Shown: positions 4,855 to 23,056 of the stretch, one piece after another
Numbering within the stretch: position 1 is the first letter of the stretch
Layout of the letters: the number at the start of each line of letters is the position of its first letter
From: an uncultured Sporosarcina sp.
GTDB taxonomy: Bacteria; Bacillota; Bacilli; Bacillales_A; Planococcaceae
Length of the DNA: 64,000 nucleotides
Direction of reading: 5' to 3'
Assembly: GCA_948469885.1 (NCBI GenBank)
Contig: CAOKMT010000003.1
Location: forward strand, 1 to 64,000
Position numbers and translations under genes: made by a program
Notes under the pieces: model-generated
Database searches by the model: none
What the model saw: only the letters and a program-made list of their open reading frames with translations
What the model was told of the DNA's origin: nothing

Positions 4855-4880
4855 ATGTGCAAACAGATAGAGGTGATTTT

Positions 4881-5726
4881 GTGAATGAAGTGACATACGA
4901 AGAAATCGTTCGAAACGTTCAAGAAATGTGTCAAAAAGCGAACTTTGACTTAGGTGAAGATGTGTACGCTGCTTTTCAGGAAGCTTTATCGACGGAAACA
5001 TCGGATACAGGAAAAGAGATTCTAAATCAATTGGTGGAAAATGCGGATATCGCAACGCAAGACCGAGTTCCGATGTGCCAAGATACCGGGACCGCTGTCT
5101 TTATTGTAGAGCTTGGTCAAGATTGTCGGATTGTTGGGGGCAACTTGATCGATGCCATCAATGAAGGAGTGGCAAAAGGATATCAGGAAGGGTATTTAAG
5201 AAATTCGATGATTTACGATCCATTGAATCGGAAAAATACTGGAGATAATACACCTGCTGTCGTTCATATTGAGCTTGTAGAAGGGAATTCAGTGACATTG
5301 CATATGACGGCAAAAGGGGGCGGCGCAGAAAATATGAGTCGCATGAAAATGTTGAAACCATCGGATGGACTGGAAGGGATCAAAAAGTATGTCCTGCACG
5401 TTGTAGAAGAGGCTGGTCCCAATGCTTGTCCACCGCTCGTCGTCGGCATCGGTGTCGGGGGCAATTTTGAACGTTGTACTTATTTGGCGAAAAAGTCGTT
5501 ATTCAGACCGATAGGCGAACGTCATGCAGACGAAACGATCGCTCAATTGGAATTCGAACTAATGGAAGATATTAATCGTTTAGGGATTGGTCCGCAAGGG
5601 ATGGGGGGCAGTACAACGGCGCTCGATGTGAAAATAGAATCTGCGGCTTGTCATATTGCTGCGCTTCCCGTGGCAGTCAATCTAAATTGCCATGCAAGTC
5701 GACATCAAACTGTGACGTTGGGATAG
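4881..5726 (+). CDS. Class I fumarase / L-tartrate dehydratase family, alpha subunit
   Basis: A 281-residue subunit. I choose GTG 4881, which follows AGAGGTGA at 4869-4876; the GTG at 4857 has no ribosome binding site. The family uses an oxygen-sensitive [4Fe-4S] cluster to add or remove water from dicarboxylates such as fumarate, L-tartrate or mesaconate. Three candidate cluster cysteines are visible: in CQDTG, in NACPP, and near the end in NLNCHASRH. The motif GGSTTALDVK is also family-typical. The beta subunit follows after 12 nt. Fumarate, tartrate and mesaconate activities cannot be told apart here; proximity to MmgE/PrpD and a dedicated GntR regulator argues for a catabolic, not central, role. 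Confidence 0.87.
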   Translation: MNEVTYEEIVRNVQEMCQKANFDLGEDVYAAFQEALSTETSDTGKEILNQLVENADIATQDRVPMCQDTGTAVFIVELGQDCRIVGGNLIDAINEGVAKGYQEGYLRNSMIYDPLNRKNTGDNTPAVVHIELVEGNSVTLHMTAKGGGAENMSRMKMLKPSDGLEGIKKYVLHVVEEAGPNACPPLVVGIGVGGNFERCTYLAKKSLFRPIGERHADETIAQLEFELMEDINRLGIGPQGMGGSTTALDVKIESAACHIAALPVAVNLNCHASRHQTVTLG

Positions 5727-5738
5727 GGAGGGGATTAT

Positions 5739-6308
5739 ATGCAAAAATCAATTCAGCTCCCTTTAACTAAAAAGGATGTTCAATCTTTAAAAGCGGGAGA
5801 CCGCGTCTTATTGTCGGGGACTGTTTACACCGCAAGGGATGCCGCGCATAAAAGAATGATTGAGCAAGATCAAGCAGGAGAGCCTTTGCCGATCGAGTTG
5901 ACCGATCAAGTGATTTACTATGTTGGACCAACGCCCGCTAAGCCTGGCCAAGTGATTGGTTCCGCAGGTCCGACAACGAGTGAAAGAATGGACTTATACA
6001 CACCAAGATTACTTGAAAAAGGCTTAAAAGGAATGATTGGGAAGGGACATCGGAATGACGCAGTGAAAAAGGCGATTGTAGAAAACGGCGCGGTTTATTT
6101 CGGTGCCGTGGGCGGTGCGGCTGCACTCATCTCCCGATCCATCAAATCATCGGAAGTGATGGCATACGCGGACTTGGGAACAGAGGCGATCAGGCGATTA
6201 GAAATCGAAAACTTTCCCGTTGTGGTCATTAATGACATGTATGGCGGGGATGTCTACGAAGAAGGTGTTTCTACATTCAAAAAAGAAGCGGCGGAAGATC
6301 AGGGCTAA
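5739..6308 (+). CDS. Class I fumarase / L-tartrate dehydratase family, beta subunit
   Basis: A 189-residue C-terminal-domain subunit starting at ATG 5739 behind GGGAGGGG. It contains the swivelling-domain motifs YYVGPTPAKPG, GPTTSERMD, GKGH and the glycine-rich VYFGAVGGAAAL loop. In single-chain class I fumarases this part is fused behind the alpha domain; here it is a separate gene translated right after the alpha subunit, so the two should form the alpha2/beta2 type complex. The closely packed GntR regulator (11 nt downstream) is probably co-transcribed. Confidence 0.87.
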   Translation: MQKSIQLPLTKKDVQSLKAGDRVLLSGTVYTARDAAHKRMIEQDQAGEPLPIELTDQVIYYVGPTPAKPGQVIGSAGPTTSERMDLYTPRLLEKGLKGMIGKGHRNDAVKKAIVENGAVYFGAVGGAAALISRSIKSSEVMAYADLGTEAIRRLEIENFPVVVINDMYGGDVYEEGVSTFKKEAAEDQG

Positions 6309-7127: not shown

Positions 7128-7171
7128 AATATTCGAAATATTATTGACATTGGGTTTTTTATGTGTAAAAT
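7128..7171 (+). promoter_or_regulatory. Promoter with conserved upstream box (copy 1 of 3)
   Basis: The block reads AATATTCGAAATATT (7128-7142), then TTGACA (7144-7149), a 16-nt T-rich spacer and TAAAAT (7166-7171). The same arrangement recurs near 26159 and 57487 with identical spacing. The upstream box contains the symmetric core TTCGAA and sits against the -35 element, a usual place for a repressor or activator. The remainder of the 382-nt gap 6986-7367 holds the terminator above, a small hairpin at 7229-7247 (GATTTT/AAAATC around TCTATAC), a 13-bp dyad at 7307-7319, and an AAGGAG site for the next gene. Confidence 0.75.
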
Positions 7172-7367: not shown

Positions 7368-8963
7368 ATGGAAAGACCTTGGCATAAATTTTATCCGGAA
7401 GCAGTCCCTTACAAAATACAAGTTGACGCTTTTATGTCAGTGTTTGAAGTGCTTGAACGTGCAGAGATGGAACAATCCTCCAGTCTAGCAATTATTGATG
7501 GAGAACGAGAATTCACCTTTTTTGAGTTGAAGCAAGCATCTGAATGTCTCGCCGCAGCACTTTTTCAGCGCGGCTTCAAAAAAGGAGATCGACTAGCTTT
7601 AATGGTACCGAATTGCGTAGAATACGTAATAACATTTTTTGCAGTACAGCGACTGGGTGGGACGATTGTACAAGTGAATCCGATGTACCAGCCGTATGAG
7701 TTAGATCATATTTTAAAAGATTCCGAGGCCAGTTGGTTTGTTGGTTTTTCAACGGAAAAAGAAAAACTGGATCAACTTCAACTGAATGATCGACTGCAAG
7801 CCTTTTATATCGGGACAGAGAGTGGACAGGCCTTTCAAACATTGCTGGAAGAAAAAAGGACTGAGCTTCCCGATCTGTTGATCGATCCAGTTGAAGATAT
7901 TGCCGTACTTCAATATACGGGTGGAACGACAGGCAGACCGAAAGGCGTGATGCTTACACATTTTAATGTGATCGCAAATATTACGCAAGCTTATACGTAC
8001 GGTCAGAATGTCTATAAAGAAGAAAATCATCGGTTTTTAGGTTTGGCACCAATGTTCCACGCAATGGGGGTAACGAACATGCTCCTCTGTATATTATATC
8101 GTGGAACCTATATCGCATTGAAAAGATTTAAGGTCGAGCCAGTGATCGACTTGATCCGGAAACACCGACCGACACTTTTTACAGGGTCCCCGACGGTTTA
8201 TATCGCTTTGTTAAATTATCCTGACTTGCGAGAAGACGATTTTAGTAGTTTTAAACTTTTTGTAGCAGGATCTTCTCCTGTGCCGATGGAAGTGATTAAG
8301 AAGTTTAAAAAATTGTCCAATGCTTTGTTCATAGAAGGGTATGGACAGTCGGAGGCGACGACTTCGATCCATCGAAGTCCGATTCCAGGGAAAATGAAGA
8401 TTGGTAGCATTGGCATTCCGATTTCGGGTACGGACGCAAAAATTGTCGATATGGACAATGGAGAAGCTGAAATGCCCATAGGAGAACCGGGGGAACTGGT
8501 CGTGAAAGGACCACAAGTGATGAAAGGTTACTGGAAAAATGAAGCAGAGACTGAAAAGACCATTCGGGATGGTTGGCTCTATACGGGCGATATCGCTACA
8601 CAAGACGAAGATGGCTATTTTTATATCGTGGGCCGTAAAAAAGAGATGATTATCGCAAGCGGTTATAATATTTACCCGGCGGAAATCGAAGATGTTCTTT
8701 ATGAGCATCCACTCGTACGGGAAGCTTGTGTGTTCGGTGTCGCGGATCCATACCGTGGGGAAACGGTTAAAGCTACCATCGTGACGAACGGTCCTGTCAG
8801 CGAAACTGAAATCGATGAATGGTGTACGGCAAGGTTGGCAAGGTATAAAGTGCCGCGCATCATCGAATTCAGAGAAGAACTTCCCAAAACGGCAGTAGGG
8901 AAAATTTTAAGACGTCAATTAGTAGAAGAAGAACAAGAAAAAAGTCCAGTGAAAGCAGAATGA
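7368..8963 (+). CDS. AMP-forming acyl-CoA synthetase (long-chain fatty acid-CoA ligase type), copy 1
   Basis: A 531-residue ANL-superfamily ligase, ATG 7368 behind AAGGAG. It activates a carboxylic acid with ATP to an acyl-adenylate and then to the CoA thioester. Visible motifs are the P-loop YTGGTTGRPKG at about residue 180, the adenylate-binding EGYGQSE, YTGDIA, the hinge region GRKKEMIIASGYNIYP, and the C-terminal catalytic lysine in KTAVGKILRR. The N-terminus begins ERPWHKFYPEAVP, shared with the other two synthetases in the window (20136 and 23057), so the three form one paralogous set. A gap of only 32 nt to the TRAP receptor array suggests it activates an acid brought in by that transporter. 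Confidence 0.9.
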   Translation: MERPWHKFYPEAVPYKIQVDAFMSVFEVLERAEMEQSSSLAIIDGEREFTFFELKQASECLAAALFQRGFKKGDRLALMVPNCVEYVITFFAVQRLGGTIVQVNPMYQPYELDHILKDSEASWFVGFSTEKEKLDQLQLNDRLQAFYIGTESGQAFQTLLEEKRTELPDLLIDPVEDIAVLQYTGGTTGRPKGVMLTHFNVIANITQAYTYGQNVYKEENHRFLGLAPMFHAMGVTNMLLCILYRGTYIALKRFKVEPVIDLIRKHRPTLFTGSPTVYIALLNYPDLREDDFSSFKLFVAGSSPVPMEVIKKFKKLSNALFIEGYGQSEATTSIHRSPIPGKMKIGSIGIPISGTDAKIVDMDNGEAEMPIGEPGELVVKGPQVMKGYWKNEAETEKTIRDGWLYTGDIATQDEDGYFYIVGRKKEMIIASGYNIYPAEIEDVLYEHPLVREACVFGVADPYRGETVKATIVTNGPVSETEIDEWCTARLARYKVPRIIEFREELPKTAVGKILRRQLVEEEQEKSPVKAE

Positions 8964-8995: not shown

Positions 8996-10048
8996 ATGAA
9001 GAAACGCTTTACATTGGCTTGTGTGTGTGCTTTTCTGTTGATTATTGTAACCGCTTGCAATGGCGCTGGTGCTGAAGGAAGCGATAGTACATCACAAGAA
9101 CAGATTACCTTGAAATTTGCGGTATCCCAACCCGAGACACATACGATGCATACCGAAACATTTAAACCGTTTATGGATAAAGTGACGGAAATGACAGACG
9201 GGCAAGTGACATTCGAATATTATCCCGCAGAACAACTTGGAAAAGCAGCAGACTTGCTTGAATTGACAAGTGATGGCGTGACAGATATCGGCATTTATTA
9301 CGCTTCCTATTACCCAAGTAAAATGCCGATCACGGATGGCCTTTTAGGACTTCCGGGAATTTATTCGTCAGCTTATGAAGGGTCCATGACGTACCATGAA
9401 TTGAGTAAACAAAGCTCGGTGTTGGAATCAGATTATCTGAACAATGGGGTAAGGCCTCTGTTTATATTGGCACCTCCACCTTCTGAACTTTGGACAATTG
9501 GAAAAGAAATTAAAGTGCCGGAAGATTTGAAAGGCATGAAGGTTCGAGTGACAGGAGATTTGTTAAATAAGGCAGTCACCTCGCTAGGCGCATCACCGAT
9601 AAACATTGCTTTACCTGAGTTATACGAAGGACTGGAGAGAGGGGTTTTTGATTCTATTAATCAGAATCCCGTGTCAATAAGCGACTATGGTTTAGGAGAA
9701 TTGATTAAATATGGAACAGACGGTGTATCTTTTGGTGGCGTAAGTGCGGGTTTTGTCATTAATGAGAAAGTGTTTAAAGGGTTGCCTGAAAATGTTCAAG
9801 AGATCCTTGTACAAGTAGGCGATGAAGTAACAGAAAGTACGGCTAAGTTTTATGATGATGATAGTCAACGTGTCGTTCAAGGTTTCAGAGAGGACGGCAT
9901 CAATGTGTATGAGCTGTCGGAAGATGAAAAAGCGGAATGGCATAAGTTTTACGGAGAAATTGAAGAGAATTGGGTCAAGAAACAAAATAACCCTGATCTA
10001 GAATCTACGATTGATACATTTAGAAAAGAAGCTGAAAAGTATAAGTGA
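8996..10048 (+). CDS. TRAP transporter DctP-family solute-binding lipoprotein, paralogue 1 of 6
   Basis: A 350-residue lipoprotein with a signal peptide ending in the lipobox VTAC (Cys21), to be anchored on the outer face of the membrane. The mature part is a DctP fold: FAVSQPETHTMH at the start, YPAEQLGK, then the segment KGMKVRV carrying the conserved arginine that pairs with a ligand carboxylate in this family. Pocket-lining stretches differ from paralogues 2-4: it has PSELWTIGKE and NQNPVSISDYG where those have VYEYWTTGKE and GLYAASM-DYG. It should therefore bind a different acid. It is the first of six consecutive copies sharing one DctQM permease. Confidence 0.92.
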   Translation: MKKRFTLACVCAFLLIIVTACNGAGAEGSDSTSQEQITLKFAVSQPETHTMHTETFKPFMDKVTEMTDGQVTFEYYPAEQLGKAADLLELTSDGVTDIGIYYASYYPSKMPITDGLLGLPGIYSSAYEGSMTYHELSKQSSVLESDYLNNGVRPLFILAPPPSELWTIGKEIKVPEDLKGMKVRVTGDLLNKAVTSLGASPINIALPELYEGLERGVFDSINQNPVSISDYGLGELIKYGTDGVSFGGVSAGFVINEKVFKGLPENVQEILVQVGDEVTESTAKFYDDDSQRVVQGFREDGINVYELSEDEKAEWHKFYGEIEENWVKKQNNPDLESTIDTFRKEAEKYK

Positions 10049-10059
10049 TCAAAAGGAAG

Positions 10060-10089
10060 ACTCTTTATTCAGGTGATCATTTAAAGAGT
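10060..10089 (+). other. Hairpin between TRAP receptor genes 1 and 2
   Basis: ACTCTTTA (10060-10067) pairs with TAAAGAGT (10082-10089) across a 14-nt loop, 12 nt after the stop of paralogue 1. There is no T-run, so it reads more like an mRNA 3'-end stabiliser or processing site than a terminator. A second, weaker ATTCC/GGAAT hairpin follows near 10113-10126 in the same 158-nt gap. Confidence 0.45.
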
Positions 10090-10206
10090 GAAAAGAGATA
10101 AGCAGATTGGGTAATTCCTCAAGGAATCCATTCGTTGAATCCAGTAAGTACGTCGGATTTACGAGCAAGTCTCACCCTAGATAAAAAACTTGGAGGAATG
10201 GGAAAA

Positions 10207-11256
10207 GTGAAAAAGAATTATATTTTGGTTTTAATGTTCGCTGTTTTTTCAATAATTGTATCTGCATGCGGTGATGCCAATGCAGAAGGAAACGATGGAG
10301 ATTCAAAGAAAATCACATTGAAATTGGCAGTATCCCAGCCTGTTACGCACTCTTTGAGCACAGAAACTTTTGAACCGTTCATGGAAAGAGTGACAGAGCT
10401 AACGGATGGACAAGTTGAATTTGATTATTATCCAGCAGAACAATTAGGAAAGCTTTCCGATACGTTCGATTTAACAGGCACTGGTGTAGCAGACATCGGC
10501 ATATACATGTCCACTTATTATCCAAGCAAAATGCCACTGACAAATGGAGTATTAACAATGCCTGGAATGTATTCCAATTCCTATGAGGGAACAATGGCTT
10601 ACCATGAGCTTAGTAAGCAAAGTCCTGTTTTAGAAACAGACTTTTTAAACCATGGTGTCAGACCGTTGCTAAGCTATGCAATTCCTGTCTATGAATATTG
10701 GACAACAGGAAAAGAAATTAAAGTACCAAGCGATCTGAAGGGATTGAAGGCAAGGGTTTCCGGAGATATTGCCACACAAGCAATGTCAACATTGGGCGCT
10801 TCAGCAATTAATATTACTGTTGCCGAAATGTATGAAGCACTTGAAAGAGGCGTTGTCGATTCTGTTGGTTTGTATGCTGCATCTATGAAGGATTATGGGA
10901 TGGGAGAATTGATTAAATACGGAACAAGTGGTGTTGCATTTGGAGGGTCAGGTATCGGTTTAGTTGTGAATGAAAAAACGTTCCAAGGATTGCCAGAAGA
11001 TGTGCAAAAGGCGCTCGTGCAAGCGGGCGATGAATTTTCAGAAAGCAATGCGAAGTTTTTTGATGAACATAATGTGAGTGTTCTTGAGGGATTAAAGGGC
11101 GATGGAATTGAAGTGTATGAATTAACAGAAGATGAAATAGCACAGTGGCAAGAATTCTATACTGAAATCGGAGAAAAGTGGTTGAAAGAACAAAACAATC
11201 CTGATCTCGAAGCAACGATCAAAGCATTCCAGGAAGGTGTTAAGAAATACAATTAA
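10207..11256 (+). CDS. TRAP transporter DctP-family solute-binding lipoprotein, paralogue 2 of 6
   Basis: A 349-residue DctP lipoprotein. GTG 10207 follows GGAGG at 10192-10196 and puts the lipobox cysteine (VSAC) at residue 21, exactly as in the neighbours; longer open-frame starts would bury the signal peptide. The carboxylate-binding arginine is kept in LKARVSGD. The pocket signature (VYEYWTTGKE, TVAEMYEALERGVVDSVGLYAASM) is nearly identical to paralogues 3 and 4, making these three a young subgroup probably with related ligands. The gap before it (158 nt) is the longest in the array and carries hairpins. Confidence 0.92.
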   Translation: MKKNYILVLMFAVFSIIVSACGDANAEGNDGDSKKITLKLAVSQPVTHSLSTETFEPFMERVTELTDGQVEFDYYPAEQLGKLSDTFDLTGTGVADIGIYMSTYYPSKMPLTNGVLTMPGMYSNSYEGTMAYHELSKQSPVLETDFLNHGVRPLLSYAIPVYEYWTTGKEIKVPSDLKGLKARVSGDIATQAMSTLGASAINITVAEMYEALERGVVDSVGLYAASMKDYGMGELIKYGTSGVAFGGSGIGLVVNEKTFQGLPEDVQKALVQAGDEFSESNAKFFDEHNVSVLEGLKGDGIEVYELTEDEIAQWQEFYTEIGEKWLKEQNNPDLEATIKAFQEGVKKYN

Positions 11257-11382
11257 GTAAAAGTCGGTTGAAATAAGGGGAATCCCTCGTGGATGCTATG
11301 TACCGCAGTAACAATTGGTTCAACAAACAGTTTGTGAGCACAGAGAATCTTCATCCCCATTACAAGTTGAGGAGGAAAACGC

Positions 11383-12435
11383 ATGAAGAGAAATTCTATG
11401 ACGGTTTTACTGTTTGCTTTGTTATTAATTATTATGGCTGCTTGTAGCGGTGCAGAGGCAGAAGGCAAAGACGAGGGATCCAAAAAGAAGATTACGTTGA
11501 AATTAGCAGTGTCGCAACCTGTAACGCACTCTTTGAACACAGAAACGGTTGTCCCGTTCATGGAAAAGGTAGAAGAAATGACGGACGGACAAGTTGAATT
11601 TGACTTTTATCCTGCTGAGCAATTAGGGAAAGTGTCGGATATTTTTGATTTGACAAGTACAGGGGTGGCTGACATCGGGCTATACATGTCACCGTATTAC
11701 CCTAGTAAAATGCCAATGACAAACGGGATCATGACGATGCCAGGAGCCTATGAAACGGCCTATGAAGGGACGATGGCTTATCACGAATTGAGTAAACAAA
11801 GTCCTATTTTGGAGAGGGATTATTTAGACCACGGGGTCCGACCTCTTTTTAACTATGCAGTGCCGGTCTATGAATACTGGACAACTGGAAAAGAGATTAA
11901 AGTTCCGGAAGATTTCAAAGGGATGAAAGTGAGGGTCTCCGGGGACATTACAACGAAAGCAATGTCCGATTTAGGTGCTTCGCCAATCAATATTACGGTT
12001 GCAGAAATGTATGAAGCGCTTGAAAGAGGTGTGATCGATTCTGTCGGATTGTACGCAGCATCGATGAGAGATTATGGAATGGGAGAATTGGTGAAATACG
12101 GAACAAGTGGTATCGCGTTCGGGGGCACCGGTATAGGTCTCGTCATCAATGAAAAAGTGTTCCAAGGATTGCCCGAAGATATACAAGAAGCGCTCGTCCA
12201 GGCAGGTGACGAATTTACAGAAAGCAATGCCAAGTTTTTCGATGAATTCAATGTGAGTGTAATCGAGGAATTTAAAGATGCTGGCATTGAAGTGTACGAA
12301 TTATCGGATGCTGAAAAAGCGGAATGGCAGAAGTTTTATGAGAAAGTGGCAGCAGAATGGTTGAAAGAGAAAAATGACCCTGATTTGGAAAAGACGATTG
12401 AAGCATTCAAGGAGAAAGTGGAAATGTATAAATGA
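11383..12435 (+). CDS. TRAP transporter DctP-family solute-binding lipoprotein, paralogue 3 of 6
   Basis: A 350-residue lipoprotein with ATG 11383 behind GAGGAGG and lipobox MAAC at Cys21. DctP landmarks are LAVSQPVTHSLN, FYPAEQLGKVSD, the arginine in GMKVRVSGD and INEKVFQGLPED near the hinge. It is closest to paralogue 4: the stretch from YYPSKMP through MTMPGAYET is almost the same, and long segments agree at the DNA level apart from third positions. This points to a recent tandem duplication followed by purifying selection. The likely ligand is a monocarboxylate or hydroxycarboxylate, not further definable. Confidence 0.92.
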   Translation: MKRNSMTVLLFALLLIIMAACSGAEAEGKDEGSKKKITLKLAVSQPVTHSLNTETVVPFMEKVEEMTDGQVEFDFYPAEQLGKVSDIFDLTSTGVADIGLYMSPYYPSKMPMTNGIMTMPGAYETAYEGTMAYHELSKQSPILERDYLDHGVRPLFNYAVPVYEYWTTGKEIKVPEDFKGMKVRVSGDITTKAMSDLGASPINITVAEMYEALERGVIDSVGLYAASMRDYGMGELVKYGTSGIAFGGTGIGLVINEKVFQGLPEDIQEALVQAGDEFTESNAKFFDEFNVSVIEEFKDAGIEVYELSDAEKAEWQKFYEKVAAEWLKEKNDPDLEKTIEAFKEKVEMYK

Positions 12436-12503
12436 TGAAACGTAACTGATGAAAGCAAAAGTGTATAAATCACTTGGAAACTATTGTACTGGGGGGCGAA
12501 ATT

Positions 12504-13562
12504 GTGAAAAGAAATTGGATCCTTGTTTTCCTTCTAGCGTCTGTGCTTATCGTTGCGTCTGCTTGTGGTGATGCCGACGCAGAAGGAGATGCTGATGGAG
12601 GAGATTCAGAAAAGAAAGTCACTTTAAAGCTTGCCGTGTCACAGCCGACCACACACACTTTGAATACAGAAGCCTATCAGCCTTTTATGGAAAGAGTGGA
12701 AGAGTTAACTGATGGTCAGGTCAAATTTGATTATTACCCAGCAGAACAATTAGGGAAAGTATCAGACATTTTCGATTTGACAAGTACAGGGGTTGCTGAC
12801 ATCGGCTTGTATATGTCCCCTTATTATCCAAGTAAAATGCCCTTAACAAACGGGATTATGACAATGCCGGGAGCCTATGAAACTTCCTATGAAGGGACGA
12901 TGGCTTACCACGAGCTGACGAAACAAGAACCCATGTTAGAAAGAGATTTTTTGAGCCATGGCGTTCGCTCTTTAGTTAGTTTAGCTGTCCCTGTTTACGA
13001 ATACTGGACTACCGGCAAAGAAATAAAAGTTCCTCAGGACTTTAAAGGTTTGAAAGTGAGAGTTTCGGGAGATTTAGCGACTCAAGCAATGTCTGATTTA
13101 GGAGCATCTCCAATTAATATCACAGTGGCCGAAATGTATGAAGCACTTGAAAGAGGCGTAATCGACTCCGTTGGTCTATATGCCGCATCTATGAATGATT
13201 ATGGGATGGGTGAATTAGTTAAATATGGAACAAGTGGGATTGCTTTTGGAGGTACGGGAATTGGCTTAGTCGTAAATGAAAAAGTATTCCAGGGATTACC
13301 TGAAAATGTGCAAGAAGCGCTTGTTCAAGCGGGGGATGAGGTTTCAGAAAGTTATGCGAAGTTTTTTGACGAGTATAACTTGACTGTCATCGATGACTTT
13401 AAAGATCTAGGCATTGAAGTGCATGAATTGACAGATGATGAAAGAGCGGAATGGCAAAAGTTTTATGAGGAACTGGGCGAAAAATGGCTGAAAGAAAAAA
13501 ATGACCCTGATCTGAATGAAACAATTGAAGCATTCAAGGAGAAAGTAGAGCAATATAAATGA
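12504..13562 (+). CDS. TRAP transporter DctP-family solute-binding lipoprotein, paralogue 4 of 6
   Basis: A 352-residue lipoprotein. GTG 12504 behind GGGGGG gives a signal peptide with lipobox ASAC at Cys21. The mature N-terminus is longer and very acidic (DADAEGDADGGDSE). The binding arginine is in LKVRVSGD, and the pocket signature VYEYWTTGKE with SVGLYAASMNDYG groups it with paralogues 2 and 3. Its leader and first codons (12476-12518) are nearly repeated before paralogue 5 (13603-13645), evidence that the unit of duplication included the ribosome binding site. Confidence 0.92.
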   Translation: MKRNWILVFLLASVLIVASACGDADAEGDADGGDSEKKVTLKLAVSQPTTHTLNTEAYQPFMERVEELTDGQVKFDYYPAEQLGKVSDIFDLTSTGVADIGLYMSPYYPSKMPLTNGIMTMPGAYETSYEGTMAYHELTKQEPMLERDFLSHGVRSLVSLAVPVYEYWTTGKEIKVPQDFKGLKVRVSGDLATQAMSDLGASPINITVAEMYEALERGVIDSVGLYAASMNDYGMGELVKYGTSGIAFGGTGIGLVVNEKVFQGLPENVQEALVQAGDEVSESYAKFFDEYNLTVIDDFKDLGIEVHELTDDERAEWQKFYEELGEKWLKEKNDPDLNETIEAFKEKVEQYK

Positions 13563-13630
13563 CAAAGGGAAGCTAACATTAGCCATGAATGTATGGTTTT
13601 CATGGAAATTGTTGTACTGGGGGAGAAGTC

Positions 13631-14683
13631 ATGAAAAGAAATTGGGTATTCGTTTTCCTTTTGGCGTGTGTGCTCACCGTTGTGGCCGCCTGTAGTGAAG
13701 CGGACGCGGAAGGTGATGGCAAAGAAACGCAGAAGAAAGTGACATTAAAATTCGCAGTGCCGCAACCGGAAACACATAATATGAACCGAGAAGTTTTTCA
13801 ACCGTTCATGGAGAAAGTGAAAGAATTGACGGATGGACAGGTTGATTTTGAGTTTTATCCGGCAGAACAGTTAGGAAAGATTGACGATCTATTCATATTG
13901 GCTGGAGACGGTGTCACAGATATTGCATTTTACTATCCGACCTACCATACGAGCCAAATGCCGATCAACAGTGCATTAATTCAAATGCCAGGATTGTATG
14001 CTTCTTCATATGAAGGATCGATGGCGATGCATAGCTTGATGAAGGAAGATCCGATTTTAGAAACGGATTTTCTAAACAACAACGTGCGCCCGATTTTCTA
14101 CTATGCTGCACAATCGAGTGAGCTATTTACAAAAGAAAAAGAAGTGAGAGTTCCAGAGGACTTGAAAAACAAAAAAATGAGAGTGAGTGGTAAAGTCGGT
14201 AATAAAATGACTGCTGAACTTGGTGCGACACCGATTAACATCACACTCGCTGAAATGTACGAAGGTTTTGAAAGAGGCGTCTTCGACATCGTCAATTTGA
14301 ATACCGCTTCGATGAATGATTACGGGATGTCCGAATTGATTGGTTATGGGACAGCTGGTGTCATGACGGGTGGGAATGGCGGCGGGTTAGTTATTAATGA
14401 AAAAACATTCCAAAGCTTACCTGAAAATGTTCAAGAAGCGATCATTCAAGTAGGCGATGAGCTCGTTGAAAGTAATGCTAAGTTTTACGATGAATATGCC
14501 GCCAGCCTGGCAGCAGAGTGGAAAGAGGCGGGCATTGTTTTACATGAATTGACGGAAGAAGAACAAGCAAAATGGCAACAGTTTTACGATGAAATCGAAG
14601 CCGATTTATTGAAAGAAGTGAACCATGCTGACGTGGAACCGGCAATCGAGGCATTTAGGGCAGAAGTTCAAAAATATAATTGA
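13631..14683 (+). CDS. TRAP transporter DctP-family solute-binding lipoprotein, paralogue 5 of 6
   Basis: A 350-residue lipoprotein, ATG 13631 behind GGGGGAG, lipobox VAAC at Cys21. Although its signal peptide and leader resemble paralogue 4, the mature protein is diverged: the pocket segments read SSELFTKEKE and FDIVNLNTASMNDYG, the post-arginine loop is MRVSGKVGNK, and the helix after YYPTYHTSQMP is changed. The key arginine remains. The mix of a copy-4-like 5' end and a diverged body could mean gene conversion or recombination between neighbours. Ligand class: carboxylate, presumably different from that of 2-4. Confidence 0.92.
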   Translation: MKRNWVFVFLLACVLTVVAACSEADAEGDGKETQKKVTLKFAVPQPETHNMNREVFQPFMEKVKELTDGQVDFEFYPAEQLGKIDDLFILAGDGVTDIAFYYPTYHTSQMPINSALIQMPGLYASSYEGSMAMHSLMKEDPILETDFLNNNVRPIFYYAAQSSELFTKEKEVRVPEDLKNKKMRVSGKVGNKMTAELGATPINITLAEMYEGFERGVFDIVNLNTASMNDYGMSELIGYGTAGVMTGGNGGGLVINEKTFQSLPENVQEAIIQVGDELVESNAKFYDEYAASLAAEWKEAGIVLHELTEEEQAKWQQFYDEIEADLLKEVNHADVEPAIEAFRAEVQKYN

Positions 14684-14722
14684 ATCATCGCTTCACACTA
14701 TATGTAGGGGAGAATGATTTGA

Positions 14723-15793
14723 ATGAAAAAGGGAATGTATGGGTTTCTGCTGCTTTTGTTGTTGGTGATTGTCACGGCTTGTAGCAATGTGGAGGCAGAA
14801 GGCGACAATGCTGGAGCTAAGAGTGATGACTCCAAAGAGAAAATTACCTTGAAGTTTGCAGTATCCCAGCCGACAACGCACACAATGAATAAAGTTATGT
14901 ATACGCCTTTCATGGAAGAGGTAACGAAGCGTACAGATGGTCAAGTAGAATTTGAATTTTATCCATCTGAACAGTTAGGAAAAATTGATGACTTATTAGA
15001 TTTAACTGGCAATGGTGTTGCGGATATCGGGATGTATATACCGAACTATTACTCTAGTAAAATGCCAATTACGAGTAACTTGATGAACATGCCTGGGTTG
15101 TTTGAAAGCTCTTATGAAGGATCCGTTATTTATCACGAAATCATTAAGGAAAATGAATCCTTAATTAAATCTGACTACGCCAATAACGGAATTATTCCTT
15201 TGTTTAGTCTGGCTTCTCCATTAGCAGAGTTTTGGACGAATGGAAAAGAAATTAAAGTGCCGAACGATATCCAAGGAATGAAAATTCGGATCTCGAGTGA
15301 GTTAACGAATAAAGCGATGAAAGATTTAAAAGCATCTCCTATTAACATTACGATGGCTGAAATGTATGAAGGAATGGAAAGAGGCGTATTTAATGGCATG
15401 CTTTTAAATGGTGCGTCGACAAAAGACTATGGAATGGAAGATTTAGTTAAGTATGGAACAGTTGGAGCAGGCTTTGGAGGCGGTCTTCTAGGAGTTGGTA
15501 TCAATGAAAAAGTTTTTAATGGGTTACCAGAACAAATCCAAGATGTACTTATTGAAGTAGGCGATGAGTTAACAGAAAGTGTTGCGCAACATTACGATGA
15601 TTATACGAACGAGGTGATCAGCCAATTCGAAGATGCGGGAGTTAAGATGCACCGTATAACAGAGGAAGAATATGCAGTGTGGAAAAAGTTTTATGAAGAT
15701 TTTGAAGAAGCGTGGACAAAATCCCAAGACAGTCCTGACTTGGATGCTGTCTTGCAATCTTTCAAAAAGAAAGTCATTGAACATCGAGAATAA
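14723..15793 (+). CDS. TRAP transporter DctP-family solute-binding lipoprotein, paralogue 6 of 6
   Basis: A 356-residue lipoprotein, ATG 14723, lipobox VTAC with Cys20. It is the most diverged copy: LAEFWTNGKE, the arginine in GMKIRISSE, and a pocket segment FNGMLLNGASTKDYG replace the residues of the other copies, and the pre-hinge loop is GGGLLGVGINEKVF. It directly precedes the permease genes (83 nt), so it may be the ancestral receptor of this transporter. The C-terminus ends EHRE rather than the KY(N/K) of the others. Confidence 0.92.
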   Translation: MKKGMYGFLLLLLLVIVTACSNVEAEGDNAGAKSDDSKEKITLKFAVSQPTTHTMNKVMYTPFMEEVTKRTDGQVEFEFYPSEQLGKIDDLLDLTGNGVADIGMYIPNYYSSKMPITSNLMNMPGLFESSYEGSVIYHEIIKENESLIKSDYANNGIIPLFSLASPLAEFWTNGKEIKVPNDIQGMKIRISSELTNKAMKDLKASPINITMAEMYEGMERGVFNGMLLNGASTKDYGMEDLVKYGTVGAGFGGGLLGVGINEKVFNGLPEQIQDVLIEVGDELTESVAQHYDDYTNEVISQFEDAGVKMHRITEEEYAVWKKFYEDFEEAWTKSQDSPDLDAVLQSFKKKVIEHRE

Positions 15794-15876
15794 ATAATAT
15801 CAAAAGATTGTAGGTTCTTTCAGCCTTAAGGAAATAAGTGCTTGTCATTTCATTTTTTTAGATAGGAGGTAACACT

Positions 15877-16371
15877 TTGACATACTTAACGAAATTGCTG
15901 ACGAAAGTAGATAAAATCATAACGAATATATCGGCAATTACGATATTTATTATGATGCTATGGATTGTTGCGGATGTGCTGTTAAGGTCTATTTTTCATG
16001 CACCTATTTCGGGGACGATTGAAATTACGGGAGAGTACTTGCTTGTCATCATTGTCTACTTTGCCATTAGTTACACGTATAAAGAAGGCGGTCACGTCTC
16101 GGTTGAGTTATTCGAGGATAAATTTCCACAATTGTTTAAGAGAATAGTGAGAGTCGTCACAAATTTACTTGCTATTGCGGCGTTTACTCTTTTAGGTATC
16201 GCGAACTATCAAAAAGGATTAGATTATTTTGCTACGGATATTCGTACGACGAGCTTGCTAGATTACCCGTTGGCACCTGCGCTAATGATCATAACACTAG
16301 GCGTATTTTTACTTGTTATTAACTTAATATTAGAAACAGTTGCTGTTTTGAGAGGAAAAAAGGAACTGTAA
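15877..16371 (+). CDS. TRAP transporter small permease subunit (DctQ family)
   Basis: A 164-residue protein with TTG 15877, 8 nt behind AGGAGG at 15863-15868. Four hydrophobic segments are visible at about residues 17-37, 53-70, 92-110 and 131-153, as expected for the four-helix DctQ subunit. The segment GTIEITGEYLL at the start of helix 2 is the usual DctQ signature. It pairs with the large subunit encoded next and serves all six upstream receptors unless other permeases exist elsewhere. Confidence 0.9.
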   Translation: MTYLTKLLTKVDKIITNISAITIFIMMLWIVADVLLRSIFHAPISGTIEITGEYLLVIIVYFAISYTYKEGGHVSVELFEDKFPQLFKRIVRVVTNLLAIAAFTLLGIANYQKGLDYFATDIRTTSLLDYPLAPALMIITLGVFLLVINLILETVAVLRGKKEL

Positions 16372-16401
16372 TTACCGTCTAGGCGCTTGGAGAAATCTTC
16401 T

Positions 16402-16436
16402 GCTAGAAGTCAGGCTACTTCTACCTGACTTCTGGC
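16402..16436 (+). other. Strong hairpin between dctQ-like and dctM-like genes
   Basis: GCTAGAAGTCAGG (16402-16414) and CCTGACTTCTGGC (16424-16436) form a 13-bp stem with a G-U pair and a 9-nt loop. No T-run follows. TRAP permease genes usually overlap or touch; here they are separated by 134 nt containing this stem. It may modulate translation or mRNA processing between the subunits. Confidence 0.6.
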
Positions 16437-16505
16437 TTCGTCTATCCATGTAAGACGTCTATGCTACATGCGGTTGCTATTTACAGAGGCAAAAGGGGTG
16501 TTGAG

Positions 16506-17783
16506 ATGGTTATTAGTGTATTACTGATAGCATTGCTTGTTTTATTATTGATCGGTATGCCGATTGCATTCGTCCTGCTAACGATAGGGTCGATTGGGAT
16601 TGTATGGATTCAAGGGTTCGATACATTGCAAGGAATTTTATCGACGACGGCATATCGCAGTGTCAACAGTTTTACTTTTAGTGCGATTCCACTATTTATT
16701 TTGATGGCGCATTTTATTTCAAAAAGTAAAATTGCAGATGAGTTGTTTGATAGTGTCATTAAATGGATTGGACATTTTCCTGGGGGGACTGGAGTCGCGA
16801 CGGTATTGGCAAGTGCGGGTTTTGGAACCCTTTCAGGGTCAAGTGTGGCGGCAACAGCAGCGATGTCCCAAATTGCGGTACCGCAAATGATAAAAGCGAA
16901 ATATTCAGATTCCTTTTCAGCTGGATTAGTGGCGACGGCGACAGGTATATTAGCGGCGATGATTCCACCGAGCATTCCACTCATTTTATATGGAATTCAA
17001 ACGGAGAACTCAATCGGAAAACTACTGATTGCCGGCGTTCTCCCAGGACTTTTGATCGCTTTCCTTCTATGTGTCTATATCATTCTCGTTTCATTGAAAA
17101 ATAAAACGTCAAGTGTCAAGGCTTCTTGGAGCGAAAGATGGGGATCGCTAAAACATATATGGCCTGTTATCTTGTTAGTCTTGGTCGTTATTACAATCAT
17201 TTACTTAGGTATTGGAACTGCAACAGAAGCGGCTGCCTTTGGAGCTTTTGGGGCGTTCCTCATCGGTGTCCTCATGAGACGCTTGGATTGGAAGGCGATT
17301 TATGAGGCACTTATGATTACAACAAAGCAATCCGCGATGATTTTCACGATTATTATTGGTGCCCATGTGTTTGCTTATTTCGTCGCATTAACACGGGTTG
17401 GAAACGATATTATTAATGCAATTGAAGCGAGTGGATTCCCGGCTTGGGTAATCATGTTGATGCTTGTCATTATGTATCTTGTAATGGGGATGTTCATGGA
17501 CTTGATCGGTACGATGTTGTTGACGATTCCGTTAGTGTATCCGCTCGTCATTGGACTTGGATATGATCCGATTTGGTTTGGTATTGTGCTTGTTCTGTTA
17601 TTGGAAATTGGACTTGTCACGCCACCAGTTGGGATTAACCTATTCATTGTAAGTGAGAATTCGGGCGTTCATTCAAATCGGGTCCTCGTCGGCGCAATCC
17701 CTTTTATAGTGGTAATGTTGCTCGCATTACTTTTAATTATGGCGTTTCCGCAAATTGCTTTGTATTTACCGTCGAAGATGTGA
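16506..17783 (+). CDS. TRAP transporter large permease subunit (DctM family)
   Basis: A 425-residue polytopic protein. ATG 16506 follows AAGGGGTG, and earlier in-frame codons would add a hydrophilic extension untypical of the family. About twelve hydrophobic helices are visible. DctM landmarks include IPLFILMAHFISKSKIADELF, GSSVAATAAMSQIAVPQM, the IPPSIPLILYGI loop and the C-terminal GLVTPPVGINLFIVS. It is a sodium-coupled elevator-type transporter that accepts acid-loaded binding proteins. It is the only DctP-type permease in the window. Confidence 0.92.
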   Translation: MVISVLLIALLVLLLIGMPIAFVLLTIGSIGIVWIQGFDTLQGILSTTAYRSVNSFTFSAIPLFILMAHFISKSKIADELFDSVIKWIGHFPGGTGVATVLASAGFGTLSGSSVAATAAMSQIAVPQMIKAKYSDSFSAGLVATATGILAAMIPPSIPLILYGIQTENSIGKLLIAGVLPGLLIAFLLCVYIILVSLKNKTSSVKASWSERWGSLKHIWPVILLVLVVITIIYLGIGTATEAAAFGAFGAFLIGVLMRRLDWKAIYEALMITTKQSAMIFTIIIGAHVFAYFVALTRVGNDIINAIEASGFPAWVIMLMLVIMYLVMGMFMDLIGTMLLTIPLVYPLVIGLGYDPIWFGIVLVLLLEIGLVTPPVGINLFIVSENSGVHSNRVLVGAIPFIVVMLLALLLIMAFPQIALYLPSKM

Positions 17784-17899: not shown

Positions 17900-18883
17900 A
17901 TGAAAACGAGAATTACGGAACTGTTAGGAATTGAATATCCAATCATTTGCGGAGGAATGTTCCAAGTCGGGCGGGCGGAACTTGCCGCCGCGGTATCTGA
18001 AGCGGGAGGGCTTGGCATCATCACGTCCAAGACGCAAGGCACATCGGAGAAATTACGTGAAGAAATCCGGAAAGTGAAAGCGTTGACGAAAAAACCTTTC
18101 GCTGTGAATTTGAACCTTTTTCCGAGTCAAACGGCGACGCCGAATGAAGATTTCATCCAAGTGATGATCGAAGAAGATGTCCGAATTGTCGAGACAAGCG
18201 GACGTAGTCCAAAAGCGCTTATGCCATTATTGAAAGAAAATGGTTTTACAGTTTTGCATAAAGTGGTCGGTGCGAAATATGCGATGACAGCCGAAAGATT
18301 GGGCGTCGATGCAGTGATCGTCGTCGGCAATGAAACAGGTGGGCATCCCGGGATGAGTGATGTCGGGACGATGGTTGCATTGCCACGTGTAATTGATTCG
18401 GTTCGTATTCCAGTCATCGCGGGAGGTGGCTTCGCAGATGGAAGAGGGCTTGTCAGTGCTTTGGCATTCGGAGCGGAAGGTGTTTTGATGGGAACGCGGT
18501 TTATGGCAACGAAAGAAGCACCGATTCATGACAACGTGAAGCAATGGATGCTCTCAGCGGATGAAACGGAAACGGTTATCGTGCAAAAGAATCTTGGCAG
18601 TCCTTCCAGAGTGGCATTGAATGAAGTGAGCCAAGAGGTTGAGCGATTGGAAAAGGAAGGGGCGACAATCGAACAGCTTCTCCCGCTTATTACGGGGCAA
18701 AGGGCGAAACATGTTTATTTTGAAGGGGATCTCGATGGTGGTATTTGGTCATGCGGACAATCTGTCGGTTTAGTGAAGGAGATTTTATCCGCTGAGGAAC
18801 TCATCCAACAAATCGTCTCTGAGGCGGAGCAATCATTAGCATTTATCCGTAAAAGTGTGGAACATCGCGAAAGTGTCAAATAA
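17900..18883 (+). CDS. Nitronate monooxygenase / FabK-like FMN flavoprotein
   Basis: A 327-residue TIM-barrel FMN enzyme of the 2-nitropropane-dioxygenase family, ATG 17900 behind GAAAGGGG. Visible are the N-terminal substrate loop IICGGMFQVGRAELAAAVSEAGGLG, ETGGHPG with the histidine usually implicated in catalysis, and the phosphate-binding IAGGGFADGRG and GAEGVLMGTRF. Family members oxidise nitronates or act as enoyl-thioester reductases (FabK). Sitting 21 nt before a CaiB CoA-transferase and near CoA ligases, an enoyl-CoA or related CoA-thioester redox role is at least as likely as nitronate detoxification; this is inference from context. Confidence 0.85.
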   Translation: MKTRITELLGIEYPIICGGMFQVGRAELAAAVSEAGGLGIITSKTQGTSEKLREEIRKVKALTKKPFAVNLNLFPSQTATPNEDFIQVMIEEDVRIVETSGRSPKALMPLLKENGFTVLHKVVGAKYAMTAERLGVDAVIVVGNETGGHPGMSDVGTMVALPRVIDSVRIPVIAGGGFADGRGLVSALAFGAEGVLMGTRFMATKEAPIHDNVKQWMLSADETETVIVQKNLGSPSRVALNEVSQEVERLEKEGATIEQLLPLITGQRAKHVYFEGDLDGGIWSCGQSVGLVKEILSAEELIQQIVSEAEQSLAFIRKSVEHRESVK

Positions 18884-18904
18884 AAGTGGCGGAGAAATGG
18901 GGGA

Positions 18905-20020
18905 ATGGCTATGTTGACAGGTATTCGAGTCATTGACTTTTCACAATATTTACCGGGCCCTTACACGACATTGCGTTTGGCGGATTTGGGCGCTGATATT
19001 ATTAAAATCGAATCGCCGAATGGGGATCCCGCACGCTTCCCGCCTGAACAAGATGGCGGAGAGCGATATGTATTTCGTGCCCAAAACAGAGATAAAAAAA
19101 GTGTTACGTTGAATTTGAAAGAACGGACAGAGCAATTGATTGCACTTGACCTAATAAAGGGAGCGGACGTTGTCCTCGAAAGTTTCCGTCCAGGAGTCGC
19201 TAACCGTTTAGGCATCGGCTACGAAGACGTGACGAAAGTGAAACCTGACATCGTTTACTGTTCGCTGTCAGGTTACGGACAAGAAGGAGAAATGAGCCAT
19301 TTAGGAAGCCATGATTTGAACTATATGGCACTGAGCGGTGTGCTTTCCCAATTGAAAGATGACAATGAAAAGCCAATCCACCCGAGTACGACGTTGGCTG
19401 ATTTGGTCGGCGGAGTTGCGGCGAGTGAATCGATTGTCGCTGCACTTTTACAAAAGGAGCGATCGGGCAAAGGAGCCTATCTTGATATTGCGCTCGCCGA
19501 CGTCATGGCCACTTTAATGACGAATCACGTCCTTATCGAGTCGGCGACCGGTAAGGCGAACGGCATTGAACGGTTGGACAGACAACTCATTTGTTACGGG
19601 CTTTACGAAACGAAAGACGGTCGGTTTATGAGCCTCGCTGCTTTGGAACCGAAGTTTTGGGAGAATTTTTGTATGGCCGTGGAGAAAAAAGAATGGCTCG
19701 AAGCGCATCTCACAGCGCCGGTGGATTCGAATCCGGTTTACGGGGAAATTAAAAAATTGTTTGCGGATCGGACTTTCGACCAATGGTTGCAATTTTCCCA
19801 GCAAGTGGATTGCTGTATGGCACCTGTATTGAAATCGGGTGAGTTGGCAGATCATCCTTATTATAAAACTAGAAAGCTTATACAAGAACGATGGGGTCAT
19901 CATTATGTCGCAACACGTTTCAATGAGGGGCAATCATTGCTTGAGGATTCGACTACGGCGCCGAAACACGGAGAGCATACGAAAGAGCTGTTAGAGAAAT
20001 TGGCGCATGTGACAAAGTAA
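18905..20020 (+). CDS. CaiB/BaiF family (type III) CoA-transferase, copy 1
   Basis: A 371-residue protein starting at ATG 18905 (ATG 18911 possible). Family III CoA-transferases move CoA between acids through an aspartyl-CoA thioester. The catalytic aspartate is kept in LADLVGG, near residue 165, and the N-terminal IDFSQYLPGPYTTLRLADLGADIIKIE segment is diagnostic; VVLESFRPG and YCSLSGYG follow. At 371 residues it is slightly short for the family but complete. Operon with the flavoprotein gene before it; the CoA donor and acceptor are unknown. Confidence 0.87.
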   Translation: MAMLTGIRVIDFSQYLPGPYTTLRLADLGADIIKIESPNGDPARFPPEQDGGERYVFRAQNRDKKSVTLNLKERTEQLIALDLIKGADVVLESFRPGVANRLGIGYEDVTKVKPDIVYCSLSGYGQEGEMSHLGSHDLNYMALSGVLSQLKDDNEKPIHPSTTLADLVGGVAASESIVAALLQKERSGKGAYLDIALADVMATLMTNHVLIESATGKANGIERLDRQLICYGLYETKDGRFMSLAALEPKFWENFCMAVEKKEWLEAHLTAPVDSNPVYGEIKKLFADRTFDQWLQFSQQVDCCMAPVLKSGELADHPYYKTRKLIQERWGHHYVATRFNEGQSLLEDSTTAPKHGEHTKELLEKLAHVTK

Positions 20021-20135
20021 TATAGCGTAAATATACAGAACGAATTGATGAATCGTGCACGGGTCGCTAAGTATCGTTTTACATCATAGGAAGTCACGAT
20101 TGGTATCTTATGATTAAGAGGAGGACTAAATTAAG

Positions 20136-21740
20136 ATGTCGAGACCTTGGTATTCTTCTTATCCAAAAAGTGTTCCACATGAAATTGCAATCCCTCATTA
20201 TTCACTGTATGAGTTGCTCGCAAAAACGGCGGAGAAGTATCCAGAACAAAAAGCAGTAATTGATGGCACACGTGAAATCACGTATGCGGAACTGCAAGAT
20301 AAAGTGGATCGTTTGGCGACGTCGCTTAAAAAACGAGGATTCCGTAAAGGGGATCGAATGGCGATCATGCTACCGAACAGTATAGAGTACATCATGACTT
20401 ATTTTACAATCCACCGTTTAGGGGGCACAGTTTGCCAAGTGAATCCAATGTATCAGCCACGTGAATTGGATTATATTTTACAAAACTCGGGAGCTAAATG
20501 GTTTGTAAGTTTTGAGGAACAATGGGCGAAATTAAATGAAATTGAGCAACGAGAAGACTTGATTGTCATTTCGGCTGATCTGAAAAGCGGCTATCCTAAC
20601 CATTTATATAAGTGGTTAGATGAAGAAGATGAAATCGTGCAACCTGAAGCGATTGATCCGCAAGAAGATGTAGCACTGTTACAGTATACGGGTGGAACGA
20701 CTGGCAGATCCAAAGGTGTGGTCCTAACTCATACGAACTTAATCATGAATGTAACGCAGTCTGTCACATTCCAACAAGATGTGCTACAAATCCCAGGGGA
20801 AGTGATGGTCGGCTCTTCACCGTTATTTCATATAGCGGGCATTGTCAACTTAAACCAGGCGGTGCTAACGGGAGCGGTTTATCTCGCAGTCCGTCGTGTT
20901 CAGATCGACGACATGATGTCGCTGATCCGAAAGTATCGCCCGACCATTTTTTCTGGGGTCCCTACACTTTATATTGCTCTTTTAAATCACCCTGAACTTA
21001 AAAGTGATGACTTGAAAAGTTTTAAAGTTTGCGCAAGCGGAACTGCCGCTTTACCGATGGAGGTCATAAGCGGAATGGAAGAGAAAACAGGCGCCCAAGT
21101 TATTTCTTCATTCGGCATGTCGGAAGCGCTTATCACTCATCGCACACCTCCGGGAAGAGTCCACAAGCTGGGTAGTATCGGTGTTCCATTACCGGGGACG
21201 GACGCCAAAATCGTTGATATTGCCACAGGGAAGAAAGAATTGCCAATTGGTGAATCGGGCGAAATGGTTTTGAAAGGCCCTCAAGTGACGAGTCAATACT
21301 GGAATAATGCCGAAGAGACGAACCATGCGCTGCGGGATGGTTGGTTATATACAGGTGATTTAGCGAGGATGGATGAAGATGGTTACTTTTTTATCGTCGG
21401 TAGAAAAAAAGATATGATCATCGCAAGTGGCTATAATATTTACCCAGATGAGGTGGAGGAAGTGCTTTATCAGCATCCTGCGGTGGCAGAAGCATGTGCT
21501 TTCGGTGTCCCTCATCCGTATCGGGGGGAAACGGTTAAAACAATCATTATCCCGAAAAATGGTGCTCAAGTGACGAAGGAAGAAATTGTGGATTGGTGCA
21601 ATGAACGGTTGGCGAGATATAAAGTGCCTACCCTCATTGAATTCAGAGATGAATTGCCTAAATCCGCGGTCGGAAAAGTGTTAAGGCGTGTATTAGTGGA
21701 AGAAGAGAGAACAAAGAATCCGACGGTTCATAGCCGATAA
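20136..21740 (+). CDS. AMP-forming acyl-CoA synthetase, copy 2
   Basis: A 534-residue ANL ligase, ATG 20136 behind AGAGGAGG. Motifs: YTGGTTGRSKG (serine in place of the proline seen in the other two copies), SSFGMSE, YTGDLA, GRKKDMIIASGYNIYP and the C-terminal lysine in KSAVGKVLRR. N-terminus SRPWYSSYPKSVPHEI marks it as a paralogue of 7368 and 23057. An acyl-CoA dehydrogenase follows 24 nt later, so it probably supplies that enzyme with its acyl-CoA. Confidence 0.9.
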   Translation: MSRPWYSSYPKSVPHEIAIPHYSLYELLAKTAEKYPEQKAVIDGTREITYAELQDKVDRLATSLKKRGFRKGDRMAIMLPNSIEYIMTYFTIHRLGGTVCQVNPMYQPRELDYILQNSGAKWFVSFEEQWAKLNEIEQREDLIVISADLKSGYPNHLYKWLDEEDEIVQPEAIDPQEDVALLQYTGGTTGRSKGVVLTHTNLIMNVTQSVTFQQDVLQIPGEVMVGSSPLFHIAGIVNLNQAVLTGAVYLAVRRVQIDDMMSLIRKYRPTIFSGVPTLYIALLNHPELKSDDLKSFKVCASGTAALPMEVISGMEEKTGAQVISSFGMSEALITHRTPPGRVHKLGSIGVPLPGTDAKIVDIATGKKELPIGESGEMVLKGPQVTSQYWNNAEETNHALRDGWLYTGDLARMDEDGYFFIVGRKKDMIIASGYNIYPDEVEEVLYQHPAVAEACAFGVPHPYRGETVKTIIIPKNGAQVTKEEIVDWCNERLARYKVPTLIEFRDELPKSAVGKVLRRVLVEEERTKNPTVHSR

Positions 21741-21764
21741 AATGACGTACTGGGAGGTACAAAA

Positions 21765-22943: not shown

Positions 22944-22968
22944 AATCCGGGATACTAGGCACTGCCAT

Positions 22969-22990: not shown

Positions 22991-23056
22991 GGAGCAATGA
23001 CCTGATACTTTACTGATGTGGACGATGAACAGGATAAAGAATAGGGAGGAAAAAAC

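Follow-up and report, generated by a model that had tools for sequence, protein, structure and literature searches.

Transporters of the tripartite ATP-independent periplasmic (TRAP) family are ordinarily encoded by DctPQM operons of the kind described in PMC3180692, and the pairing of a TRAP receptor with its cognate permease is, according to PMC12599236, usually unique. Sharing of membrane parts among receptors is known for ATP-binding cassette (ABC) transporters (multi-receptor examples are cited in PMC12599236; Thomas 2010); it is suspected for tripartite tricarboxylate transporters (TTT), whose orphan (Bug) receptors occur in Bordetella, Achromobacter and others, a shared permease being offered as one possibility (PMC5812351); and it has been proposed once for TRAP. 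The locus considered here lies in the first 64,000 nucleotides of contig CAOKMT010000003.1 of assembly GCA_948469885.1 (this whole stretch is called "the window" below), from a genome of the genus Sporosarcina that is 88.5% complete in 225 contigs. At positions 8996-17783 of its + strand, six intact DctP lipoprotein genes stand head to tail, followed by one DctQ and one DctM gene. The arrangement is real and rare and has evolved repeatedly, and it is probably the core of a TRAP hub, in which many receptors, most of them encoded among genes of acyl-CoA catabolism, would feed one DctQM. Among the matches listed in a literature search outside which most subscription-journal papers lay, no title or opening of an abstract describes a TRAP receptor array.

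The first-pass annotation had noted the six DctP genes in a row before a single permease, each with a lipobox and the carboxylate-binding arginine. This observation is correct, and it is understated. The reading frames and Pfam matches bear out the gene order (Table 1): all six receptors (P1 to P6 in gene order) exceed the PF03480 cut-off (113.7-148.2 bits against 23.4), DctQ (PF04290) and DctM (PF06808), two separate and unfused genes, exceed theirs, and the intergenic gaps are 39-158 bases. The lipobox is present in 6/6 array receptors, as is the arginine of a K-x-R-[VI] motif, which is retained in 12/12 paralogs of the subfamily defined below; it is equated by motif with Arg147 of SiaP (numbering from PMC3610893), the residue with which TRAP receptors grip the ligand carboxylate (PMC4646407, PMC3610893). 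DctP is the sole family matching the six at E 0.001: there is no match to TctC-type (TTT/Bug) receptors, and at the same threshold neither the receptors nor the DctQM match the TAXI-type NMT1-like receptor (PF16868) or a fused permease. (A technical note: start codons were placed by visible ribosome-binding sites, and the DctM start at 16506 is our choice, a longer open frame being possible from 16461.)

The window holds half of the set. Its genome has 25 DctP matches, and a tree places six more of these with the six of the array (43-80% identity). They lie on four contigs, three in a row on C13 and one each on C4 (at 91 kb), C35 and C12, and no similar DctQM is found beside any of the six. 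A thirteenth receptor, on C4 at 66 kb, is 32-39% identical to the twelve and has its own DctQM, whose DctM is 62-63% identical to that of the window, although its placement in the DctM tree lacks support. The count of receptors to DctQM is thus 12:1, or 13:2 when the C4 system is included; the other DctMs of the genome are at most 42% identical to the window DctM, short or partial stretches (up to 46%) excepted. Dedicated DctQM pairs for several receptors, the finding named beforehand as one that would speak against a shared permease, were sought elsewhere in this incomplete genome: the only similar DctQM is that of C4, beside its own distant receptor. Twelve of the 25 DctPs have no unfused DctM within 4 kb, and the longest other run of DctP genes is the C13 triplet, of the same subfamily.

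The triplet (C13:14599-17886; L051:8600-11887) stands between acyl-CoA synthetase-like and acyl-CoA dehydrogenase genes, and the genes beside it resemble the acyl-CoA synthetase, enoyl-CoA hydratase, acyl-CoA dehydrogenase (74%) and SDR genes of the window; two more look like MaoC hydratases. (The MaoC-type and proline-racemase-like labels of neighbour genes are our own, given from the sequence without a search.) The C12 receptor (C12:35375-36451; L055:5376-6452) adjoins a TAXI receptor and fused permease, past which lie a CoA-transferase and a hydratase, and could deliver to the permease of this other TRAP class. Aldehyde dehydrogenase and SDR genes are found near the orphan at C35:15246, and germination, branched-chain amino-acid transport and sigma-54 activator genes near the orphan at C4:91146. 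Separately, two DctPs of another subfamily lie ~1.2 kb apart near a contig end (C88:5542-8904; L057) and form a supported group with C35:4208 (100/100), a small second expansion.

The most telling comparison is with Sporosarcina sp. P13, whose genome is 99% complete. Four receptors of the subfamily are spread there over ~34 kb of one contig (NZ_PDYM01000005.1, length 152323), with one close DctM (77% identical to that of the window) and a DctQ ortholog (70%); the other P13 DctMs are at most 38% identical to the window DctM. A near-complete genome thus also has more receptors than permeases of the same subfamily, at 4:1. The 16 receptors of the two genomes form one clade (100/100 and 100/99 in two trees). 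The P13 receptor directly upstream of DctQM has as its sister C13a, which is an orphan in the window genome (98/96 and 98/99; reciprocal best hit, 63%), and two other P13 receptors group with C13b and C12 (100/99 in both trees). When the P13 island is compared by best hits with the window and five fetched stretches, these window genes have reciprocal partners in it: those for enoyl-CoA hydratase, acyl-CoA dehydrogenase (87%), MmgE/PrpD (80%), thioesterase, DctQ, DctM, the CoA-transferase, the citrate-synthase-like protein (82%) and the IclR regulator. The C13 genes with such partners are those for the SDR (73%) and for two MaoC-like proteins (46 and 40%). It follows that a receptor is permease-adjacent in one species while its sister is permease-free in the other, the enzyme company being partly kept. 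We infer from this gene order and descent, which together make the strongest argument on the point, that the orphans use the DctQM of the window.

How common is the arrangement? Thirty other genomes of the genus, each at least 95% complete, contain 93 DctPs (7 of the 30 have none), with three tandem pairs and no longer run, a run being defined by starts less than 1.6 kb apart; by this measure the row of six exceeds what chance would give. At most 7 of these 93, three of them P13 receptors, have no unfused DctM within 4 kb; this is an upper bound for the other genomes, since the table of DctMs for the genus is incomplete. (Fused DctMs of more than 600 aa and four contig-end fragments of the window genome were left out of the count; rows were copied by hand, and two DctM rows were added from other searches.) In a sample of 398 genomes of the class, a DctM match at E 1e-130 was found in none but the window's own, and the system is therefore rare. 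Receptors matching P3 at E 1e-50 occur, beyond its own genome, in 4 of 398 class and 2 of 398 phylum genomes, one matching receptor in each; these searches, like the one for DctM in the class, scored at most 4-5 candidates per genome. All six of these distant genomes have a DctM of 42-47% identity near the receptor, five with starts within ~2.1 kb and one at 6.6 kb, so that one receptor per permease looks ancestral and the expansions derived.

Nine genomes have a DctM at least 56% identical to that of the window, and six of them have at least two receptors per DctQM: 12 in the window genome (and one for C4), four in P13, four in Bacillus sp. B15-48 (and one for a second DctQM, 57%), three in Bacillus sp. 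OK048, two, in tandem, in Mesobacillus harenae, and two in Neobacillus mesonae. Three have one: N. niacini (6.5 kb away), a Neobacillus metagenome-assembled genome and Alteribacillus. One of the three OK048 receptors (C28:279312-280280), a member of the expanded set, has an internal TGA and is perhaps a decaying copy. These counts take in DctPs at least 34% identical to P3, crediting those beside another DctQM to that DctQM; the nine include genomes that were reached via their DctM, and so cannot test for receptors without one. Of 37 loci, 17 are covered by whole-genome searches and 8 by gene neighbourhoods, and some of them enter the trees. In the receptor tree the expansions make up four separate groups with support, B15-48 and N. 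mesonae partly sharing theirs. (The receptor tree omits six distant DctPs, three rows of B15-48 and one each of Rhodococcus, Brevibacterium 239c and Dietzia, and represents BrevAlb by its final 380 residues; the DctM tree is built on the final 440 residues of each sequence and does not include the distant B15-48 rows of L082 and L116.) Plasmid carriage was considered and set aside: eight plasmid records, which we take to be all from Rhodobacterales, have DctPs 30-34% identical, but these belong to a different clade. Of two such records that were opened, one has a DctP with its own QM adjacent and the other a DctP with no QM annotated within 9 kb.

The genes, their numbers, arrangement, relationships and conservation are thus matters of observation. 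What do the receptors themselves disclose? P2, P3 and P4 form a clade (support 100/99) with 74-80% identity between its members, against 48-61% for the remaining pairs of the six. P1 groups (99/95) with two of the orphans, C4:91146 and C35:15246, P5 is 44-57% identical to the other 11 paralogs of the subfamily, and P6 has the longest end branch of the six in the receptor tree. Synonymous sites are saturated among P1-P6 (proportion of synonymous differences, pS, 0.70-0.82), and the ratio of nonsynonymous to synonymous substitution (dN/dS), computable for 7 of 15 pairs, is 0.07-0.14 in these; the copies are therefore old and constrained. Recent duplication is ruled out as the origin of the array, since even P3 and P4 show saturation at their synonymous sites. 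That gene conversion had acted on the leaders of P4 and P5 was also considered and dropped: the leader and signal region is 77% identical against 71% for the mature stretch, too small a difference.

The first-pass annotation had held that copies 2-4 are nearly identical in segments around the ligand pocket, and that the others differ from them and from one another exactly there. The first part stands in milder form: identity among P2-P4 is 88% over four pocket-like segments, compared with 76% for the remainder of the mature protein. The second does not, since P1, P3, P5 and P6 are 55% identical both inside and outside these segments, so that P1, P2-P4, P5 and P6 do differ from one another in the segments, though not beyond what is seen in the remaining sequence. 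Columns fixed in P2-P4 but varied in the others number 17 of 43 in the four segments (66 of 330 columns), a concentration matched by 10 of 330 circular shifts, which is weak; moreover, eight segments were viewed and four tested, picked by reference to SiaP contacts after the alignment had been seen, so that the shift test is biased. Among the four further segments viewed, the one with the arginine is 81% identical in P2-P4 and 47% in P1, P3, P5 and P6. Site-wise dN/dS around the pocket is impossible because of the saturation. The pocket pattern fits two or more ligand classes, with P2-P4 presumably close together. The Glu of an A-E-M-Y-E motif, which we take, by motif and SiaP numbering, to be E172 of HiSiaP, is kept in 12/12 receptors of the subfamily. 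Substitution of E172 by Arg in HiSiaP had one of the strongest effects on growth (PMC9352664).

The array's neighbours are genes for acyl-CoA synthetases, CoA-transferases, acyl-CoA dehydrogenases, hydratases and an SCP2-like thiolase (Table 1), and the cargo is therefore likely to be carboxylates that are broken down as CoA thioesters. An attempt to predict the ligand named none: the nearest solved receptors are distant (best E 2.6e-23), and the synthetase and thiolase matches give the class only. The array is likely to be read as a single transcript beginning before the acyl-CoA synthetase gene at 7368. No + strand terminator-like site lies between array genes, the three found within 8996-17783 all being inside reading frames. 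The terminator-like and promoter-like sites that might split the operon are, in total, fewer than the shuffle means (for sigma-70-like sites in the scanned stretch, 20 against a mean of 26.7). Several further features of the island may be recorded. Three acyl-CoA synthetase genes surround the array (7368-8963, 20136-21740 and 23057-24655). The same catabolic island has a TAXI-type receptor (PF16868) and fused permease at 29384-32528, ~12 kb downstream of the array. The protein encoded at 36475-37269 resembles the C-terminal portion of citrate synthase and has a P13 ortholog with 82% identity; a Paracoccus plasmid gene in a comparable neighbourhood is annotated as citryl-CoA lyase. At 43424-45090 a ChsH2-type OB-fold protein is followed by a thiolase-like protein, a pairing known from aldolases of steroid side-chain degradation. 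A two-subunit class I fumarase/Fe-S hydro-lyase is encoded at 4857-6308, near an MmgE/PrpD-family gene.

Table 1. The receptor array and flanking features, in window coordinates
Feature	Position	Strand	Basis and remarks
Sigma-70-like promoter, best upstream match, before acyl-CoA synthetase gene	7144-7171	+	TTGACA-16-TAAAAT, 11/12; consensus match only
AMP-forming acyl-CoA synthetase, directly upstream of P1	7368-8963	+	PF00501
DctP receptor P1	8996-10048	+	PF03480 137.2 bits; lipobox VTAC
DctP receptor P2	10207-11256	+	PF03480 141 bits; lipobox VSAC; GTG start after GGAGG
DctP receptor P3	11383-12435	+	PF03480 148.2 bits; lipobox MAAC
DctP receptor P4	12504-13562	+	PF03480 146.8 bits; lipobox ASAC; GTG start
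DctP receptor P5	13631-14683	+	PF03480 113.7 bits; lipobox VAAC
DctP receptor P6	14723-15793	+	PF03480 133.9 bits; lipobox VTAC
DctQ, small permease subunit	15877-16371	+	PF04290 83.2 bits; TTG start after AGGAGGT
DctM, large permease subunit	16506-17783	+	PF06808 322.6 bits
Downstream catabolic genes: NMO/FabK-like, CaiB-type CoA-transferase, two acyl-CoA synthetases, acyl-CoA dehydrogenase, SCP2-like thiolase	17900-25934	+	

Why should one permease be accompanied by so many receptors? A simple answer is dosage: the ligand would be the same, or nearly so, for all copies, with the array increasing the amount of receptor or spreading its expression. P2-P4, most alike in the pocket-like segments, may share a ligand class in this way, but the copies are old and have been kept under constraint, P1, P5 and P6 differ from P2-P4 in those segments, though no more than elsewhere, and different enzyme genes adjoin different receptors; we consider dosage unlikely. 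Another answer is that the surplus receptors, the orphans in particular, work in sensing or chemotaxis instead of transport. Signalling via a sensor protein is reported for a TTT receptor (PMC4996985), and suggestive genes are at hand: the C13 triplet lies ~6.5 kb from a dCache chemoreceptor gene and ~2.5 kb from one for a sigma-54 activator with PAS and CBS domains, and another sigma-54 activator gene is ~4 kb from the C4:91146 orphan. No QM is annotated nearer than 9 kb to a distant DctP (30% identical) of a Celeribacter indicus plasmid, in an incomplete gene table and a search confined to the plasmid. Neither sensor gene adjoins a receptor, however; all three of 61 relatives that have such a receptor also have a DctM at least 48% identical, the six distant genomes have theirs, and the P13 sister of C13a sits directly upstream of DctQM. 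A sensing role is on these grounds very unlikely.

The remaining alternative is that the orphans' own DctQMs lie in the missing part of the genome, and that there is no hub beyond the six receptors of the window. The state of the assembly invites the suspicion, and five partial DctM matches lie at contig ends; four of the five, however, align to the window DctM at only 30-34% (one at 46% over 39 residues) and the fifth not at all at E 1e-3. Contig C13 continues for more than 14 kb on either side of its triplet with no DctM match anywhere on it, P13 is nearly complete and still at 4:1, and the six-in-a-row array stands regardless. We judge this explanation extremely unlikely.

Several considerations nonetheless weigh against a common permease for all twelve. 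Binding, docking and uptake by the receptors are all predicted. The window genome is incomplete and fragmented, so a DctQM could be missing, and the second DctQM, on C4, might serve some receptors. Two of the twelve (C4:91146 and C35:15246) lie outside acyl-CoA cassettes, and the C12 receptor is beside a TAXI fused permease. On P13's contig two unlike TRAP systems (DctM 33 and 36%) are found at least 7 kb past the last receptor. Finally, HiSiaQM accepts SiaP from a close relative but not from a more distant system (PMC10942642); with receptors down to 43% identical, docking therefore does not follow from kinship.

The hub nevertheless remains the probable reading. It proposes that one DctQM, predicted from its family to be sodium-driven, would serve a set of related lipoprotein receptors, half with their genes next to it and half with genes elsewhere in the genome, each closing on its own carboxylate ligand and handing it to the common membrane unit. 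Since most receptor genes lie among acyl-CoA catabolic genes, a substrate could be added by gain of a receptor and an enzyme cassette, with no new permease needed. We infer that the receptors dock on the window DctQM, that their ligands differ, and that these are carboxylates activated to CoA thioesters. Of the idea first suggested for the array, many receptors and one channel, the comparative part gains support (six orphans, the 4:1 ratio of P13, separate expansions, adjacent and orphan sisters); differing ligands are plausible. The fullest version of the proposal has about an even chance of being right: a single DctQM would take cargo from 12 receptors, half of them in trans; receptor genes would shift between permease-adjacent and permease-free sites, mostly in company with acyl-CoA degradation genes; the menu of carboxylates would grow by receptors alone; and the same design would have arisen separately in several Bacillus relatives.

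The annotation of ligands and pathways leans on TRAP receptors and permeases as cognate pairs. If the proposal is true, counts of permeases understate the uptake capacity of bacteria by TRAP, and nature provides a set of up to 12 receptors per DctQM as a system in which to learn what the permease reads on a receptor and what varies with the ligand.

The locus may be compared with similar systems. With the canonical DctPQM-type systems (SiaPQM, DctPQM, TarPQM) it shares the three gene families, the order P-Q-M and the carboxylate arginine; there, one receptor per permease is the rule, whereas here six are adjacent and six more are found elsewhere. The IctPQM and DctPQM systems of Pseudomonas aeruginosa are alike in that a non-cognate DctP is proposed by the authors of PMC12599236 to feed IctQM, but there two complete systems cross-talk, and here a receptor family has expanded without permeases. 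Multi-receptor ABC transporters also join several receptors to one membrane unit, although they are ATP-driven and their membrane proteins are unrelated to the DctQM of the window. The TTT/Bug systems resemble the locus in having large receptor families and few permeases (PMC5812351); they are built of TctC and TctAB, with tens to hundreds of receptors per genome, and PMC5812351 reports no sequence similarity between TRAP and TTT.

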